Source of the DNA: Halothiobacillus sp.
Lineage (GTDB): Bacteria; Pseudomonadota; Gammaproteobacteria; Halothiobacillales; Halothiobacillaceae
Direction of reading: 5' to 3'
DNA: 64,000 bases
NCBI GenBank assembly: GCA_016278265.1
Contig: JADQCE010000001.1
Location: forward strand, 620,001-684,000
Position numbers and translations under genes: made by a program
The notes under the pieces: model-generated
Databases searched by the model: none
What the model saw: only the letters and a program-made list of their open reading frames with translations
Told to the model about the DNA's origin: nothing
Part shown: one piece after another, positions 1 to 5,526 of the stretch
Layout of the letters: each line of letters starts with the position of its first letter
Numbering within the stretch: position 1 is the first letter of the stretch

Positions 1-354
1 CCGCCAGACGGCGCGGGCACGGGCCAGACCGTAGAGCAGCTCGTCGCCGGCCACGGCCAGCCACTGCATCACCACCGCCTCGGCGGCCGGATCGGCGGGG
101 ACCCAGTCGGGCGTGCCATATCGGCGGGCAAGGTAGATGAGGATCGCCATCGAATCCCAGATCTGCACCTCGCCATCGACCAGGAACGGCACCTGGCCGC
201 GCGGGTTGATGCGCTTGAATTCCGAGGAGGCAGGCTGCCCGGCGACGACGTCGATGGGGACGCGCTCGTGCTCCAGGTCGAGCATCGAGAGCAGCAATCG
301 CACCTTGTGGCAGTTGCCGGACAGCGGGAAGTCGTAGAGCGTGATCGGACTCAC
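1..354 (-). CDS. Glutathione S-transferase, N-terminal part (cut by window edge)
   Basis: The first 118 residues read M-S-P-I-T-L-Y-D-F-P-L-S-G-N-C-H-K-V-R, the thioredoxin-fold N-terminal domain of a soluble glutathione S-transferase. A Ser/Asn-Cys pair sits near residues 12-15 and the cis-proline segment N-P-R-G-Q-V-P-F follows, then the D-S-M-A-I glutathione-contact motif. The start is a GTG at 352-354; no ATG lies at the right place. The C-terminal helical domain is beyond position 1. It lies downstream of the rhodanese gene on the same strand but is separated from it by a terminator-like hairpin, so it may have its own promoter. The substrate is unknown; the context suggests detoxification of electrophiles or thiol conjugates. 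Confidence 0.85.
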   Translation of the reverse strand, partial: MSPITLYDFPLSGNCHKVRLLLSMLDLEHERVPIDVVAGQPASSEFKRINPRGQVPFLVDGEVQIWDSMAILIYLARRYGTPDWVPADPAAEAVVMQWLAVAGDELLYGLARARAVWR

Positions 355-463: not shown

Positions 464-1324
464 TCAGGCCACGAAGGGCAGGCCCTCCTCGATCGGCAGG
501 CTCGGGTCGCGCGACCACTCGTTCCAGGAGCCGAAGTACAGCCGCACGTTCTCGATGCCCGCCGCGCGCAGGGCGACCAGCGTATTGGAGGCCCGGGCGC
601 CCTTGAAACAGTACAGGAACACCTGCGAGTCCGGCGAGATGCCGACGCTGTCGCACTCGGCGCGGATCTCGGCAGGCGACTTGAAGCGTGCGACCTCGCC
701 GGGCTTCATGAAGCGATACCACTCGATCCACACCGCATCGGGGAGCCGTCCCTTGCGTGGACAGAAATCCTTGCCGTAGGGCGACGAGCTCTCGGCGATC
801 CACTCGTCCACGTCGCGGACGTCGAGGAGCACCACGTCATCGCGCTCCAGCGCGGCCAGCACGTCGTCCTTGTCCAGCATGACGTCACTGGCGCCGCTGT
901 CGAGCGGGAAGGGCGCGGCGACCGGGGTGGGTGTCTTGGTGCTGACCGGCAGGCCGGCCGCCACCCAGCCTTGAAAGCCGCCGTGCAGGATGCGGATCTT
1001 GTCCCTGGGGTAGCCGAGGTGTTCGAGCAGGAACAGGCCACGACAGGACTGGCCGAATCCCGTGTCCATGGCGTCCTCGTAGAGCACCGCGGTCTTTTTC
1101 CCATCCAGGCCGATGGCACCGAATTTTTCGCTGAACTCCCTTTCTAGCTCGGCCAGGCCTTCCGGGGTGGAGGTGGCGAGGAAGGTAAAGATCTCCGGCA
1201 TGTTGATCGCACCCGGCAGGTGACCGGCGGCATAGGCCTCGGGGTTGCGCGTGTCGATCGGCACGACGGCGGTGGTGCCGAGTAATTCTTGCAAGTCCTG
1301 CGGTTCGATGAGGGGGTTGCTCAT
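464..1324 (-). CDS. Two-domain sulfurtransferase (rhodanese / SseA type)
   Basis: This is a 286-residue protein with two rhodanese domains, the usual length of thiosulfate or 3-mercaptopyruvate sulfurtransferases. The N-terminal inactive domain starts with P-L-I-E-P-Q-D-L and contains Y-A-A-G-H-L-P-G-A-I. The C-terminal domain holds V-L-L-D-V-R-D and the catalytic loop C-F-K-G-A-R-A with Cys near residue 239. It would move sulfane sulfur through a Cys persulfide, for example thiosulfate plus cyanide to thiocyanate. The loop matches neither the C-R-K-G-V-T rhodanese nor the C-G-S-G-V-T mercaptopyruvate signature, so the donor is uncertain. The start at 1324 is chosen because AGGAG lies 7 bases before it; an in-frame start 13 codons upstream lacks this. 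It is the last gene of the osmC operon. Confidence 0.9.
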   Translation of the reverse strand: MSNPLIEPQDLQELLGTTAVVPIDTRNPEAYAAGHLPGAINMPEIFTFLATSTPEGLAELEREFSEKFGAIGLDGKKTAVLYEDAMDTGFGQSCRGLFLLEHLGYPRDKIRILHGGFQGWVAAGLPVSTKTPTPVAAPFPLDSGASDVMLDKDDVLAALERDDVVLLDVRDVDEWIAESSSPYGKDFCPRKGRLPDAVWIEWYRFMKPGEVARFKSPAEIRAECDSVGISPDSQVFLYCFKGARASNTLVALRAAGIENVRLYFGSWNEWSRDPSLPIEEGLPFVA

Positions 1325-1378
1325 GTGGTGCTCCTGGGGCTTCTGGCCCGGCGGTTGTGTCAACGGCGGTGGCCACGT

Positions 1379-2782
1379 TCAGCCGGCTTGTCTCGTGACG
1401 CGCCGGTAAAGGGATTCGTGTTCGATTACTGCTTTTCCGGCCAGCGCGTAACCGGCCAGCTGGCCGCGGCTGACAAAGTCGTTGCGTTGACCCGCATCGA
1501 CTGGCTGTGGCGTCCAGCGGCCCAGGTCCACAAGCTTGCGGTCGGGCGGGCAGAGCATGATCGGCAGGCTGGGCGTCTTGACCCGAATGGCGGCCGGGCG
1601 GTGCTCGAACGGCATGCAATCGCCGCTCAGGGCCGCGGCGGCGGTTTGTGCCATGCGGCGGATCGGTTCGATAAAGAAATAGCTGTTGCCGCCGATCTCG
1701 GCGCAGTCGCCGATGGCGTAGACGTGCGGGTCACTGGTCTGCATGGTTTGGGCCGAGGCGAGGATGCCGCGGTTGGTGACCAGCCCCGCGCGTTGGGCCA
1801 GATCGGTGTTGGGCACCAGCCCCATCGCGGAGATCACCTCGTCGCTGCGGAGCTCTCCACCGTTGGTCAGCGTCACCTTGAGCCGATCGTCGGCCTGATC
1901 GACGCGTGAGAGGCTGGTGCCGGGACGAAAATCCACGCCCTTGGCGGCCAGCTGTTGCCCCAGTTCGTTGCCCAGCGGGGCGGGGGCCAGGCGGTCGAGC
2001 ATGCGTTCGCCCAGGTCGAGCAGGGTTACCCGGTGACCGCCGGCGGTCAGGTCCTCGGCCAGTTCCACCCCGATCAACCCGGCGCCGATGATGGTCAGAT
2101 GCCGCGGCTCGCCGTCGAGACGGGCGCGCAGACGTTGATAGGCGGCCAGGTGGTTGAGGCGGGTAATGCGATTGGCGGCATCGCCATCGAAGGCGCGGAA
2201 GCGTTGGCGGGCGCCAAGCGCCAGCACCAGGTCGCCGTAGTGAACCGGACCGCGCGTGGTTAGCAAGCGCTTGCCGTCGGTGTTCACGGTCAACACCGAG
2301 GTGTTCGGCTGAAGGGTGATGCCCAGTTCGGCCGCCTTGGCCGGTCCGCTTTGTTCGATCAGGTCGGCCGGCGCACGCCCCTGGCTGATCGCCATGGAGA
2401 GGCCGGGCTTGGTGTAGGCGGCGGCCTCGTCGTTGCTGATCAAGGTGATCGGGCGGTCGGGATCGCGGACCCGCAGTTGTTCGGCGACCGTCCAGCCGGC
2501 CACGCCGGCCCCGACGATGACCACCGAGTCCGGACCGCCTACGCCGCCACGCAGGGCCCGAGGGCGTGGGGCATTTGCCTCGGCGGCGCGCTGGGCGGCG
2601 TATTCGTGCAGTGGCATGAAGTCGGCCTTGGTGACCCCGCATAGTGGGCAGTACCAGTCATCTGGGATGTCCTCGAAACGGGTGCCGGGCGCCAGCCCGC
2701 TGTCCGGGTCGCCCTCGTCCTCGTCGTAGATCCAGCCGCATACGGTGCAGATCCAGCGGATGTCTTCTTCAGGCGTGTTCAT
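1379..2782 (-). CDS. Rubredoxin fused to NAD(P)H:rubredoxin reductase
   Basis: This 467-residue fusion begins with a rubredoxin domain: the iron ligands are C12-x2-C15-G and C45-P-L-C48-G. A short Ala/Arg-rich linker leads to an FAD-dependent pyridine-nucleotide-disulfide-type reductase. That part has an FAD GxGxxG motif in V-I-V-G-A-G-V-A-G near residue 90, an NAD(P)H motif in I-I-G-A-G-L-I-G near residue 215, and the second FAD motif Y-A-I-G-D-C near residue 350. Such fusions pass electrons from NAD(P)H through FAD to the Fe-Cys4 centre and on to a partner oxygenase or peroxidase. The candidate partner is the adjacent acyl-CoA-dehydrogenase-like flavoprotein. It is the third main gene of the osmC operon. 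Confidence 0.93.
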
Positions 2783-2943: not shown

Positions 2944-4095
2944 TCAGTCGATCAACGCCTCGATTTCCTTGCGCAAGTGCTTGATCGCCGGGGTGACGAT
3001 CGCGACGAAGTAGGCCTCGCGCAGCTTGCGTTGGGCCGGGGCGTCTACCAGGTAGCCGTTCGCGCCGGTATGCAGCATGGCGCTATTGGCTGCGCGCAGG
3101 GCGAGCTCCGAGCCGGCCAGTCGCAGTTCCAGTACCTGGCGGAAATAGGCCGGGTCGGGGTTGTGCACGTCTGTGGCCAGTTCGCGCACCAGCGCGCGGG
3201 TGTCCTCGAGTGCCTCGCGCAGCTCGTCCGGCCGGTCGTCGAGATAGGCGTTGATGTGGCCGAGACGCGGTTCGACTTCCTCGCACAGGCGGATACAGCC
3301 CTCGATCACGCCGGTGGCCATGCCCACCTGTAAGAGGACGAAGCCGGCCTTGATGTGATTGAGGAACGGGCCGACCGGGTCGGCGATGATCTCGTTCTTG
3401 GGGATGAAGACATCCTTGAAGAACAGGGCATAGGTGCCGGTGCCTTCCATGCCGCAGAATTCGGCCAGTTGCCGGAACTCGAATCCGGGGGTGTCGGTAT
3501 GGACCAATGCCATCACGTCGCGGGGGTTGTTGCCCTCGACGCGGAAGATCGAGCCGAACACGTGCGATTCGCCCAGGTTCGAGATCCAGGGCAGTTGGCC
3601 ATTGACGATGAAACCGTCGCCGGTCTCCTCGGCGTGCAGCAGGATGTCCTCGATGCCGGCGAAGTATTTCATTGGGTTGGACAGGGCGGTGCCGCCGAGC
3701 AGTTCGCCGCTGGCAAGCTTCGGCAGGACGGTGTCCTTGAGGTGCTGGTTGTCGGAATTCTCGACGTACCAGGCGACCGCGTCCTGGCACCAGGTCATGA
3801 AACCGGTGGACATGCATTCGGCGGAAATGCGGTCCATGTCGTCGATGGCGGCGGCGATGTCCATGCCGGCCGGGTTCTGTGAGGCAAGGTGGTGGCGATA
3901 GGCCCCGGCTGCACCGATTTCGTGCAACAGGTCGGCTGGGTATTCGCCGTGGTCGATCGGGATCACCTTCGGCTTGAGGGCTCGGCGAATGACCGTGTCG
4001 AGATCGGCCGGCGCCTCGGTTTTCAGAAAGCTTGGCACCTCGGGTGGTGCTGCATTCGGTCGAGCCGCCACGGGGGCGTGGGTAGCGAGGTTCAT
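2944..4095 (-). CDS. Acyl-CoA-dehydrogenase-like flavoprotein (SfnB/DszC-like?)
   Basis: The 383-residue protein has the acyl-CoA dehydrogenase fold. There is an N-terminal helical domain, a beta-domain segment around W-I-S-N-L-G-E-S-H-V-F-G resembling the FAD-binding W-I-x-N motif, and a C-terminal four-helix region (A-A-N-S-A-M-L-H-T-G-A-N-G-Y). The usual acyl-CoA dehydrogenase C-terminal (E)-G-T motif is not visible; the corresponding stretch reads A-Y-F-V-A-I-V-T-P. Fatty-acyl oxidation is therefore unlikely. Relatives without the catalytic base include flavin monooxygenases such as DszC and the SfnB sulfur-acquisition family. Placed between an OsmC-like gene and a rubredoxin reductase, it may be a flavin oxidase or oxygenase fed by the latter. 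This role is inference. Confidence 0.75.
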   Translation of the reverse strand: MNLATHAPVAARPNAAPPEVPSFLKTEAPADLDTVIRRALKPKVIPIDHGEYPADLLHEIGAAGAYRHHLASQNPAGMDIAAAIDDMDRISAECMSTGFMTWCQDAVAWYVENSDNQHLKDTVLPKLASGELLGGTALSNPMKYFAGIEDILLHAEETGDGFIVNGQLPWISNLGESHVFGSIFRVEGNNPRDVMALVHTDTPGFEFRQLAEFCGMEGTGTYALFFKDVFIPKNEIIADPVGPFLNHIKAGFVLLQVGMATGVIEGCIRLCEEVEPRLGHINAYLDDRPDELREALEDTRALVRELATDVHNPDPAYFRQVLELRLAGSELALRAANSAMLHTGANGYLVDAPAQRKLREAYFVAIVTPAIKHLRKEIEALID

Positions 4096-4153: not shown

Positions 4154-4717
4154 TCAGGCGAGATGGCAGGAGAGATCGACCGGGCGGGTCATGGTGTTGG
4201 CCACCGGTGACCACTTCTCGGCGGTGTCCAGCAGGTCCTGCAGGTCTTCCTGACTGATCGGGTCGACCGTCTCGACGTCGAAGTAGACGCGGATGGCGGT
4301 AAAGCCGAGCGGCTTGGATTCGTCGAGATCGCCCGTGCCCCAGACGGCAGTGACGTTGATGTCCGCTTCCATGTTGAGTTCGAGCTTGCTGATCTTGATC
4401 TGGCGGGCGGTGGCGTTGGCATGCACGCCCACGGCCAGGCAGGCACCCAGGGCGGCCAGGGTGGCTTCGGAGGGGTTGGGGGCGGTGTCGTCGCCCAGCA
4501 GGTGCGGCGGCTCGTCGACCACTACCGGATCGAGGTCGCGGATGTAGGTCAGGTTGCGGAAACGGCCTTCGCAGACGGTCTTCGCCTTGAGCGTGACCAC
4601 CGCATCCGGATTGGCCTTGCCCTTCTCGCTCAGCGCCTTGAGGCCGTCGGCATCGATTTCCTTGATCGCCTGACGGATGCAGGACGGGGCGACGGGTTGG
4701 GCGGTTGCTGTGCTCAT
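4154..4717 (-). CDS. OsmC-family protein
   Basis: The 187-residue protein belongs to the OsmC/Ohr fold. The central helix carries the reactive cysteine in L-A-A-L-G-A-C93-L-A-V-G, preceded by the conserved N-P-S-E. The second catalytic cysteine of classic Ohr/OsmC (C-P-V/Y-S) is replaced: this protein reads W-S170-P-V-A-N-T. A two-cysteine peroxidase cycle is therefore not supported. It may act as a thiol/persulfide-binding or one-cysteine enzyme. An N-terminal extension of about 40 residues, with Cys13 in P-S-C-I-R, precedes the fold. A Shine-Dalgarno GGAGTG lies upstream. It is the first gene of the operon, about 70 bases after a predicted sigma-54 promoter. Confidence 0.85.
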   Translation of the reverse strand: MSTATAQPVAPSCIRQAIKEIDADGLKALSEKGKANPDAVVTLKAKTVCEGRFRNLTYIRDLDPVVVDEPPHLLGDDTAPNPSEATLAALGACLAVGVHANATARQIKISKLELNMEADINVTAVWGTGDLDESKPLGFTAIRVYFDVETVDPISQEDLQDLLDTAEKWSPVANTMTRPVDLSCHLA

Positions 4718-4796
4718 GAGTATTCACTCCGGTTTTTGATTGGCTTGGACATGGGTCGGGATCTCGCTGGACGAGCCCCGCCGTCGCCTATTGCAG

Positions 4797-4813
4797 TGCA
4801 GAGGCTGTGCCAA
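4797..4813 (-). promoter_or_regulatory. Sigma-54 (-24/-12) promoter for the osmC operon
   Basis: On the minus strand the sequence reads TTGGCACAGCCTCTGCA. It matches 11 of 13 defined positions of the RpoN consensus YTGGCACG-N4-TTGCW, including the invariant GG (-24) and GC (-12) at the correct spacing. The expected start of transcription is near 4786, giving a leader of about 70 bases before the OsmC-like gene. Two upstream palindromes at 4888 and 4920 would lie near -108 and -140, where enhancer-binding proteins usually sit. Direct assay is lacking; the call rests on the match and geometry. Confidence 0.62.
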
Positions 4814-4861
4814 CAACCGGAAATGGCGTCACGTCAACGTTTTGGAGGGTTTTCGCGCGCG

Positions 4862-4880
4862 GCGCCCCGTGGTGGGGCGC
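4862..4880. repeat. Inverted repeat in the osmC-cynS control region
   Basis: GCGCCCC-GTGGT-GGGGCGC is a 7-bp-arm inverted repeat. It lies beside the first enhancer-like palindrome, between it and the osmC promoter. It could be a further protein site or a DNA-shape element; its role is unknown. Confidence 0.4.
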
Positions 4881-4887
4881 GCAGTGT

Positions 4888-4932
4888 CGGACAATGTCCG
4901 ATGGTTGTGCGGCGCGGGGCGGACAATGTCCG
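4888..4932. promoter_or_regulatory. Twin palindromic operators (shared upstream activating sites)
   Basis: The 13-mer CGGACAATGTCCG occurs twice, at 4888-4900 and 4920-4932. It is a palindrome except at its centre. The copies are 32 bp apart (three helical turns), so they face the same side of the DNA. They sit nearly midway between a minus-strand and a plus-strand -24/-12-like sequence. Predicted offsets are about -108 and -140 from the osmC start, and -130 and -98 from the cynS start. This is the architecture of binding sites for a sigma-54 enhancer-binding protein. The sequence is not the NtrC consensus, so the activator is unknown and is not encoded in this window. Confidence 0.6.
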
Positions 4933-4996
4933 ATTCGGGGTGTGCCGTCAGGCATGTCGGTCGTCTAACCGTATGAAAGAACGGAAAAAACGAGGC

Positions 4997-5013
4997 TTGG
5001 CAGGCTTCTTGTA
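4997..5013 (+). promoter_or_regulatory. Possible sigma-54-like promoter for cynS
   Basis: TTGGCAGGCTTCTTGTA matches 11 of 13 RpoN consensus positions with correct spacing. The important -12 GC is GT here, so this is weaker than the divergent osmC promoter. The predicted leader is about 59 bases and includes a hairpin at 5026-5043 (GTGGCC-ATTGCC-GGCCAC). A sigma-70 promoter is not excluded. Confidence 0.38.
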
Positions 5014-5082
5014 ATGAAGCGGGTAGTGGCCATTGCCGGCCACGAAGTCAAACCAACGTGATCCCTTGACGGAGATGCCCTC

Positions 5083-5526
5083 ATGATGACCAAGCACGCA
5101 CTGACCGACCTGATCCTGGAAAAGAAGACCGAGCTGGGCCTGTCCTGGGCCGATATCGCCAGTGGCGTCGGCCTGTCCCCGACGTTCGTTACATCGGCCT
5201 GCCTGGGCATGAACAGCCTCAAGCCCGAGTTCGCCGACAAGCTCGTCGCGATCCTCGAACTGTCGGGCGAGGCCAAGGCCGCGATCGAGGCCTGCCCGAT
5301 GAAGACCTGGGAGCAGACCGTACCGACCGACCCGCTGATCTATCGCATCTACGAGGTGATGGGCGTCTATGGGCCAACCATCAAGGAGCTGATCCACGAG
5401 GAATTCGGCGACGGCATCATGAGTGCGATCGACTTCTCGCTCGATATCGATCGTGAGCCCAATCCCGCCGGCGATCGTGTCGTGATCACCATGAACGGCA
5501 AGTTCCTGCCCTATAAGTCCTGGTAA
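5083..5526 (+). CDS. cynS: Cyanate hydratase (cyanase)
   Basis: The 147-residue protein matches cyanase over its full length. The catalytic triad is present as Arg88, Glu91 and Ser114 (I-Y-R-I-Y-E ... G-I-M-S-A-I-D-F). The 3- and 23-residue spacings are the same as Arg96/Glu99/Ser122 of the E. coli enzyme. The N-terminal half is the degenerate helix-turn-helix-like domain (L-S-W-A-D-I-A-S-G-V-G-L-S). It converts cyanate plus bicarbonate to ammonia and CO2 in the cytosol. In thiocyanate or cyanide metabolism it removes cyanate; it also consumes bicarbonate and yields CO2, a link with the carbon genes nearby. It begins with two consecutive ATGs. The gene is single and ends at a strong terminator. 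Confidence 0.97.
   Translation: MMTKHALTDLILEKKTELGLSWADIASGVGLSPTFVTSACLGMNSLKPEFADKLVAILELSGEAKAAIEACPMKTWEQTVPTDPLIYRIYEVMGVYGPTIKELIHEEFGDGIMSAIDFSLDIDREPNPAGDRVVITMNGKFLPYKSW

Follow-up and report, generated by a model that had tools for sequence, protein, structure and literature searches.

The osmC and cynS genes of a sulfur-oxidising bacterium of the genus Guyparkeria (genome size 2.73 Mb) are transcribed divergently from a spacer in which twin palindromes are flanked by back-to-back sigma-54 boxes. This arrangement raises the question whether a single activator could switch on both transcription units, and if so, which protein it might be. The window, i.e. the whole stretch of DNA that was analysed, is 64,000 nucleotides long, and its features relevant to the question are the following (strand is given where one applies):

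1-354, minus strand: GST-like gene after the rhodanese gene, continuing past the left end of the window; the candidate activator gene lies beyond it
464-1363, minus strand: tandem-rhodanese sulfurtransferase
1379-2782, minus strand: rubredoxin fused to a NorW-like FAD/NAD reductase
2944-4095, minus strand: acyl-CoA-dehydrogenase-like flavoprotein
4154-4717, minus strand: OsmC-family protein, first gene of the operon
4797-4813, minus strand: TTGGCACAGCCTCTGCA, sigma-54 (-24/-12) promoter serving the osmC operon; top-ranked among 127,954 positions with the independent matrix, present in 17/17 family genomes
4862-4880: inverted repeat GCGCCCC-N5-GGGGCGC situated between site 1 and the osmC box; resembles an NtrC site in spacing, not significant
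4888-4900: predicted activator site 1, CGGACAATGTCCG, core GACANTGTC; 83 bp to the osmC -24 GG, 105 bp to the cynS -24 GG
4920-4932: predicted activator site 2, CGGACAATGTCCG; 115 bp to the osmC -24 GG, 73 bp to the cynS -24 GG
4997-5013, plus strand: -24/-12-like promoter of cynS, TTGGCAGGCTTCTTGTA, with GT at -12; kept in 17/17 family genomes
5083-5526, plus strand: cyanase, cynS

The first-pass annotation had described a minus-strand RpoN-type match, a plus-strand match with GT at -12 and, between them, two identical palindromes 32 bp apart; all of these elements were found at the positions listed. Compared with YTGGCACG-N4-TTGCW, TTGGCACAGCCTCTGCA (read from 4813 to 4797) and TTGGCAGGCTTCTTGTA (4997-5013) each matched at 11 of 13 positions, with GT replacing GC at -12 in the latter. 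The osmC box has the TGGC at -24, the TGC at -12 and the spacing of a sigma-54 promoter, and it is followed after 79 bp by the osmC start codon. The cynS start codon is located 69 bp after its box, in which the GG at -24 and the spacing are right in all 17 family genomes, and the -12 dinucleotide is GT or GA, never GC. The inverted repeat at 4862-4880 is retained with changes in several Guyparkeria. Two other deviations were seen in relatives. In two Guyparkeria (L078 and L082; genomes G006 and G010) some 260 bases more than in other Guyparkeria separate the cynS box from the start of the gene, and in one genome (L040, G015:C1:2381029-2383169) osmC seems to be split by ~1.56 kb after about codon 24-30.

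The strength of the two boxes was evaluated with a sigma-54 matrix trained on 27 osmC promoters, all from outside the family of the host, with which the 127,954 positions of the window were scanned. The osmC box ranked first with 17.8 bits, the next best position scoring 9.2, and the cynS box, which is without the C at -12, ranked tenth with 6.96 bits. Taken alone, the cynS box is thus weak and unconvincing by score; it is convincing because it was kept in all 17 family genomes that have the operon. These genomes all carry TGGCAC-N5-TGC on the osmC side, TGGCA(A/G)G-N4-TTG(T/A), never TTGC, on the cynS side, and at least one GACANTGTC between the boxes, counts that overstate independence because the genomes are related. 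In a comparison of eight Guyparkeria, 49 of the 60 positions within elements did not vary, as against 72 of the 266 spacer positions (Fisher p 5e-15), and both 9-bp cores were invariant.

Site-to-box distances were counted from the centre of the palindrome up to the leading G of the -24 element. Besides the values listed above for the Guyparkeria window, distances of 72-73, 95-96, 104-106 and 117 bp were found in other genera of the family, mostly 83-85 or 94-95 bp in distant gammaproteobacteria, and 92, 106-108 and 115 bp at urea-transporter and other targets. Distances of about 73, 84, 95, 105 and 116 bp are whole helical turns, and they were observed for both promoters. For 16 osmC lineages the Rayleigh test gave p ~9e-6 at a period of 10.5 bp, a value to be taken as a guide and not as a formal test because the lineages were picked after the distances had been seen, with L139 (65 bp) omitted; the fit was broad, the best periods being ~10.5-11.25 and not sharply 10.5. 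In distant gammaproteobacteria, too, a single site appears to serve divergent cynS and transporter promoters (in L125, at 93 and 84 bp, respectively). The sites thus have the position (~70-150 bp upstream) and the helical phase of an enhancer to which a putative activator would bind directly.

The nearest sigma-54 activator gene (G000:C10:617667-619442) was located 0.56 kb to the left of the window, beside the osmC operon and facing its rhodanese end. It is the kind of Fis-family gene that the first-pass annotation had suggested seeking near the palindromes. The encoded protein has GAF, Sigma54_activat and HTH_8 (Fis-type HTH) domains (Pfam), and its translation contains the GAFTGA motif, as EKGAFTGAV; an AAA+ domain with GAFTGA and a Fis-type HTH are the characteristics of an enhancer-binding protein. 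The rpoN gene is also present in the host genome. Of 25 genus and family genomes, the 17 with osmC all carry an ortholog of the activator (64-100% identity), and the 8 with no osmC all lack it (one of the eight, G003, is only 64% complete). These sequence comparisons suggest that both promoters are very probably activated by the product of this neighbouring gene, a NifA-like enhancer-binding protein of GAF/AAA+/Fis type.

The activator gene is divergent from an NrtABD-type ABC transporter, and a good sigma-54 box, GTGGCACGGCATCTGCAAT, precedes nrtA. This divergent pair has the layout of a CynF-type locus, with cyanate as the putative cargo of the transporter. The nrtA/activator spacer (G000:C10 617522-617780; L073 5522-5780) is a second divergent pair, with a canonical sigma-54 box directed to nrtA, a TGGCNTG-N4-TTGC-like box directed to the activator gene, and degenerate palindromes. 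That the activator's own spacer has only a degenerate site, GACAAAGTC, in Guyparkeria is a point against the shared-enhancer reading set out below. At position X of RQ(L/F)X-YR in the recognition helix, R was found in 28/36 activators with linked sites and N in 0/19; most GACANTGTC users have R, and the Hydrogenophilales without the site have N. A one-residue specificity switch, suggestive as it is, was not adopted, as it cannot be separated from phylogeny, most of the N group belonging to a single beta clade; L247 has N at this position, yet carries a GACANTGTC site.

Taking these observations together, it is highly likely that the spacer acts as a shared enhancer of two divergent sigma-54 promoters, bound by the adjacent NifA-like activator and working through phased looping. 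The activator (GAF-AAA+ with GAFTGA-Fis HTH) would bind both GACANTGTC palindromes and loop to sigma-54 polymerase at either box; the osmC and cynS boxes would both be on the same helical face, about 7, 8, 10 and 11 whole turns from the sites. The inducing signal would presumably enter through the GAF domain. Activation would turn on the genes for OsmC, the acyl-CoA dehydrogenase, the rubredoxin reductase and the rhodanese together with cyanase, in a pathway that would make or handle cyanate, and the adjacent NrtABD-like transporter would probably be switched on too. The cynS promoter, with its conserved non-consensus -12 element, may have a weaker output. One activator for both promoters, with the sites midway, had already been put forward in the first-pass annotation, and the idea gains support from the adjacent, co-inherited activator gene, the conserved boxes and sites, and the phasing to both promoters. 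The arrangement would provide a compact natural test of one enhancer helically phased with two divergent sigma-54 promoters.

Neither the CGGACAATGTCCG 13-mer nor the 11-bp core GGACAATGTCC had a further copy in the whole 2.73 Mb genome. Exact GACANTGTC occurred at 29 places, most of those outside the spacer being inside long open frames, and only the two spacer copies had a canonical TGGCAC sigma-54 box at enhancer distance. A large regulon in the host genome was rejected, as 27 of the 29 places lacked such a box. Two GGACACTGTCC sites were noticed 995 bp apart (G000:C18:419726 and 420721), with no sigma-54 box near them. The operator string did not occur in any of the papers listed by a literature search.

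Comparison with known regulators narrows the identity of the activator. The NtrC site, GCACC-N5-GGTGC, does not occur in the osmC/cynS spacer, and plain NtrC control of this spacer was rejected for this reason. The earlier claim that the palindrome is not the NtrC site and that plain nitrogen control is inadequate holds for this spacer, but may fail one level up, since NtrC-like sites (1-3 mismatches) were present in the transporter/activator spacer of 6/7 Halothiobacillus-type genomes. NtrC is encoded in the host genome, and nitrogen status or NtrC may act through that upstream spacer; this role is only a lead because, spacer by spacer, just three of these (L100, L102, L104) beat shuffles at the 2% level. 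The system resembles NtrC nitrogen control in its sigma-54 promoters and in the nearby genes for uptake of nitrogen compounds, and differs in that NtrC-like sites are confined to the spacer between transporter and activator genes in relatives. With NifA, the activator shares the GAF-AAA+-Fis architecture, and its best model was NCBIfam nifA. However, its score of 468 bits is below the curated equivalog cutoff of 528.85, annotated NifA proteins fell outside the activator clade in a quick tree (one non-module row, L261, grouped with two NifA rows), and the NifA site TGT-N10-ACA is absent from the osmC/cynS spacer; identity with NifA was rejected on all three grounds. GlrR (TGTC-N10-GACA) and NorR-like sites were also rejected, none being found in the spacer. 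In its mode of action the region would resemble an enhancer system of the NifA/NtrC type.

In Pseudomonas pseudoalcaligenes CECT5344, CynF is a Fis-family sigma-54-dependent regulator required for cyanase, and cynF is divergent from cynABDS, encoding an ABC cyanate transporter and cyanase (PMC6627978). Because this layout matches Thiobacillus loci, in which a GAF activator is divergent from nrtABD-cynS, our activator may be a CynF ortholog. In contrast, the activator next to nrtABD (plus cynS in G265) is of the PAS type in some gammaproteobacteria, and the available part of the CECT5344 report mentions neither an osmC operon nor a GACANTGTC site for CynF (PMC6627978). In thiocyanate oxidisers a sigma-54 regulator has been described with the thiocyanate dehydrogenase (TcDH) gene cluster (PMC5744179, PMC6504805). 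It is likewise a sigma-54 activator of sulfur oxidisers near cyanate-forming metabolism, but it sits with the thiocyanate dehydrogenase genes and has a histidine kinase partner in Thioalkalivibrio (PMC5744179, PMC6504805).

Two other explanations of the spacer have to be considered. The activator and the palindromes could drive the osmC promoter only, with cynS using another promoter and the TGGCAGG-N4-TTGT box being either a relic or a place where sigma-54 binds with no output. The low score of the cynS box, the missing C at -12 throughout the 17 genomes, and the distance of 203-237 bp between palindrome and cynS box in several Halothiobacillus-type genomes would fit this explanation. We nevertheless regard it as unlikely, because the box was kept in 17/17 genomes with GG, TTG and spacing intact, the sites are phased to it (73/105, 84 and 127 bp), and in the distant gammaproteobacteria L125 and L247 the cynS-side box has the canonical GC, 93-96 bp from the same site. 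Alternatively, the palindromes, a common operator form, could bind some other regulator (a repressor, or a CynR-like protein of the LysR type), the sigma-54 promoters being driven by a different enhancer-binding protein such as NtrC. The host genome does encode NtrC and several other activators, and the inverted repeat at 4862-4880 has NtrC-like spacing. Yet the osmC/cynS spacer is without the NtrC consensus, phasing relative to the boxes is what is expected of an enhancer, and GACANTGTC follows one activator clade across taxa and different target genes (see below), which makes this second explanation very improbable.

The distribution of the arrangement beyond the family was studied by scanning genome contigs with osmC, which yielded 80 loci. 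In the majority of the beta- and gammaproteobacterial loci, osmC was directly preceded by the activator gene or had it within a few kb, with transporter, cynS and rhodanese genes around. A conjugative Marinobacter plasmid carries, in this order, genes for an ABC transporter, the activator, OsmC, an acyl-CoA dehydrogenase, an FAD oxidoreductase and cyanase (cynS), with three GACANTGTC sites ahead of osmC. Exact GACANTGTC was found in 14 of 31 distant osmC upstream regions versus 0.19 in shuffles. It was also found upstream of TGGC-type sigma-54 boxes near related GAF activators without osmC, some of which adjoin urea transporters (named by sequence resemblance of the neighbours). As a control, 20 cynS loci were picked irrespective of the site, most of them without the module; none of the 20 had GACANTGTC at cynS, therefore the site tracks the activator clade, not cynS. 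One control genome (G131) has osmC and an activator a few kb away. Counting against the shared-enhancer reading, most Hydrogenophilales with an orthologous activator were without exact GACANTGTC, and some carry TAACAATTTGTTA.

There is probably a widespread, undescribed regulatory family, in which a NifA-like GAF activator and phased GACANTGTC sites control a module of OsmC, acyl-CoA-dehydrogenase-like, rubredoxin reductase, rhodanese, cyanase and ABC transporter genes (probable C-N or C-N-S breakdown via cyanate), and in which sister activators use the same site near urea transporters. For cyanase and for this recurrent uncharacterised module of sulfur oxidisers, a concrete candidate activator, operator and target set are now at hand; the available part of the Guyparkeria pangenome report lists cynS in every genome and does not discuss its control (PMC9032823). 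The pattern of GACANTGTC followed, at one of several whole-turn distances, by TGGCA-N6-TGC could serve as a regulon finder across many genomes. In mycobacteria (L167-L186) the activator is missing, and a relative of osmC usually precedes cyanase and an acyl-CoA-dehydrogenase-like gene. Other gammaproteobacteria (L299, L247) have, divergent from nrtABD (cynS included in L299), a sigma-54 activator of the PAS type, a different regulator beside similar genes.
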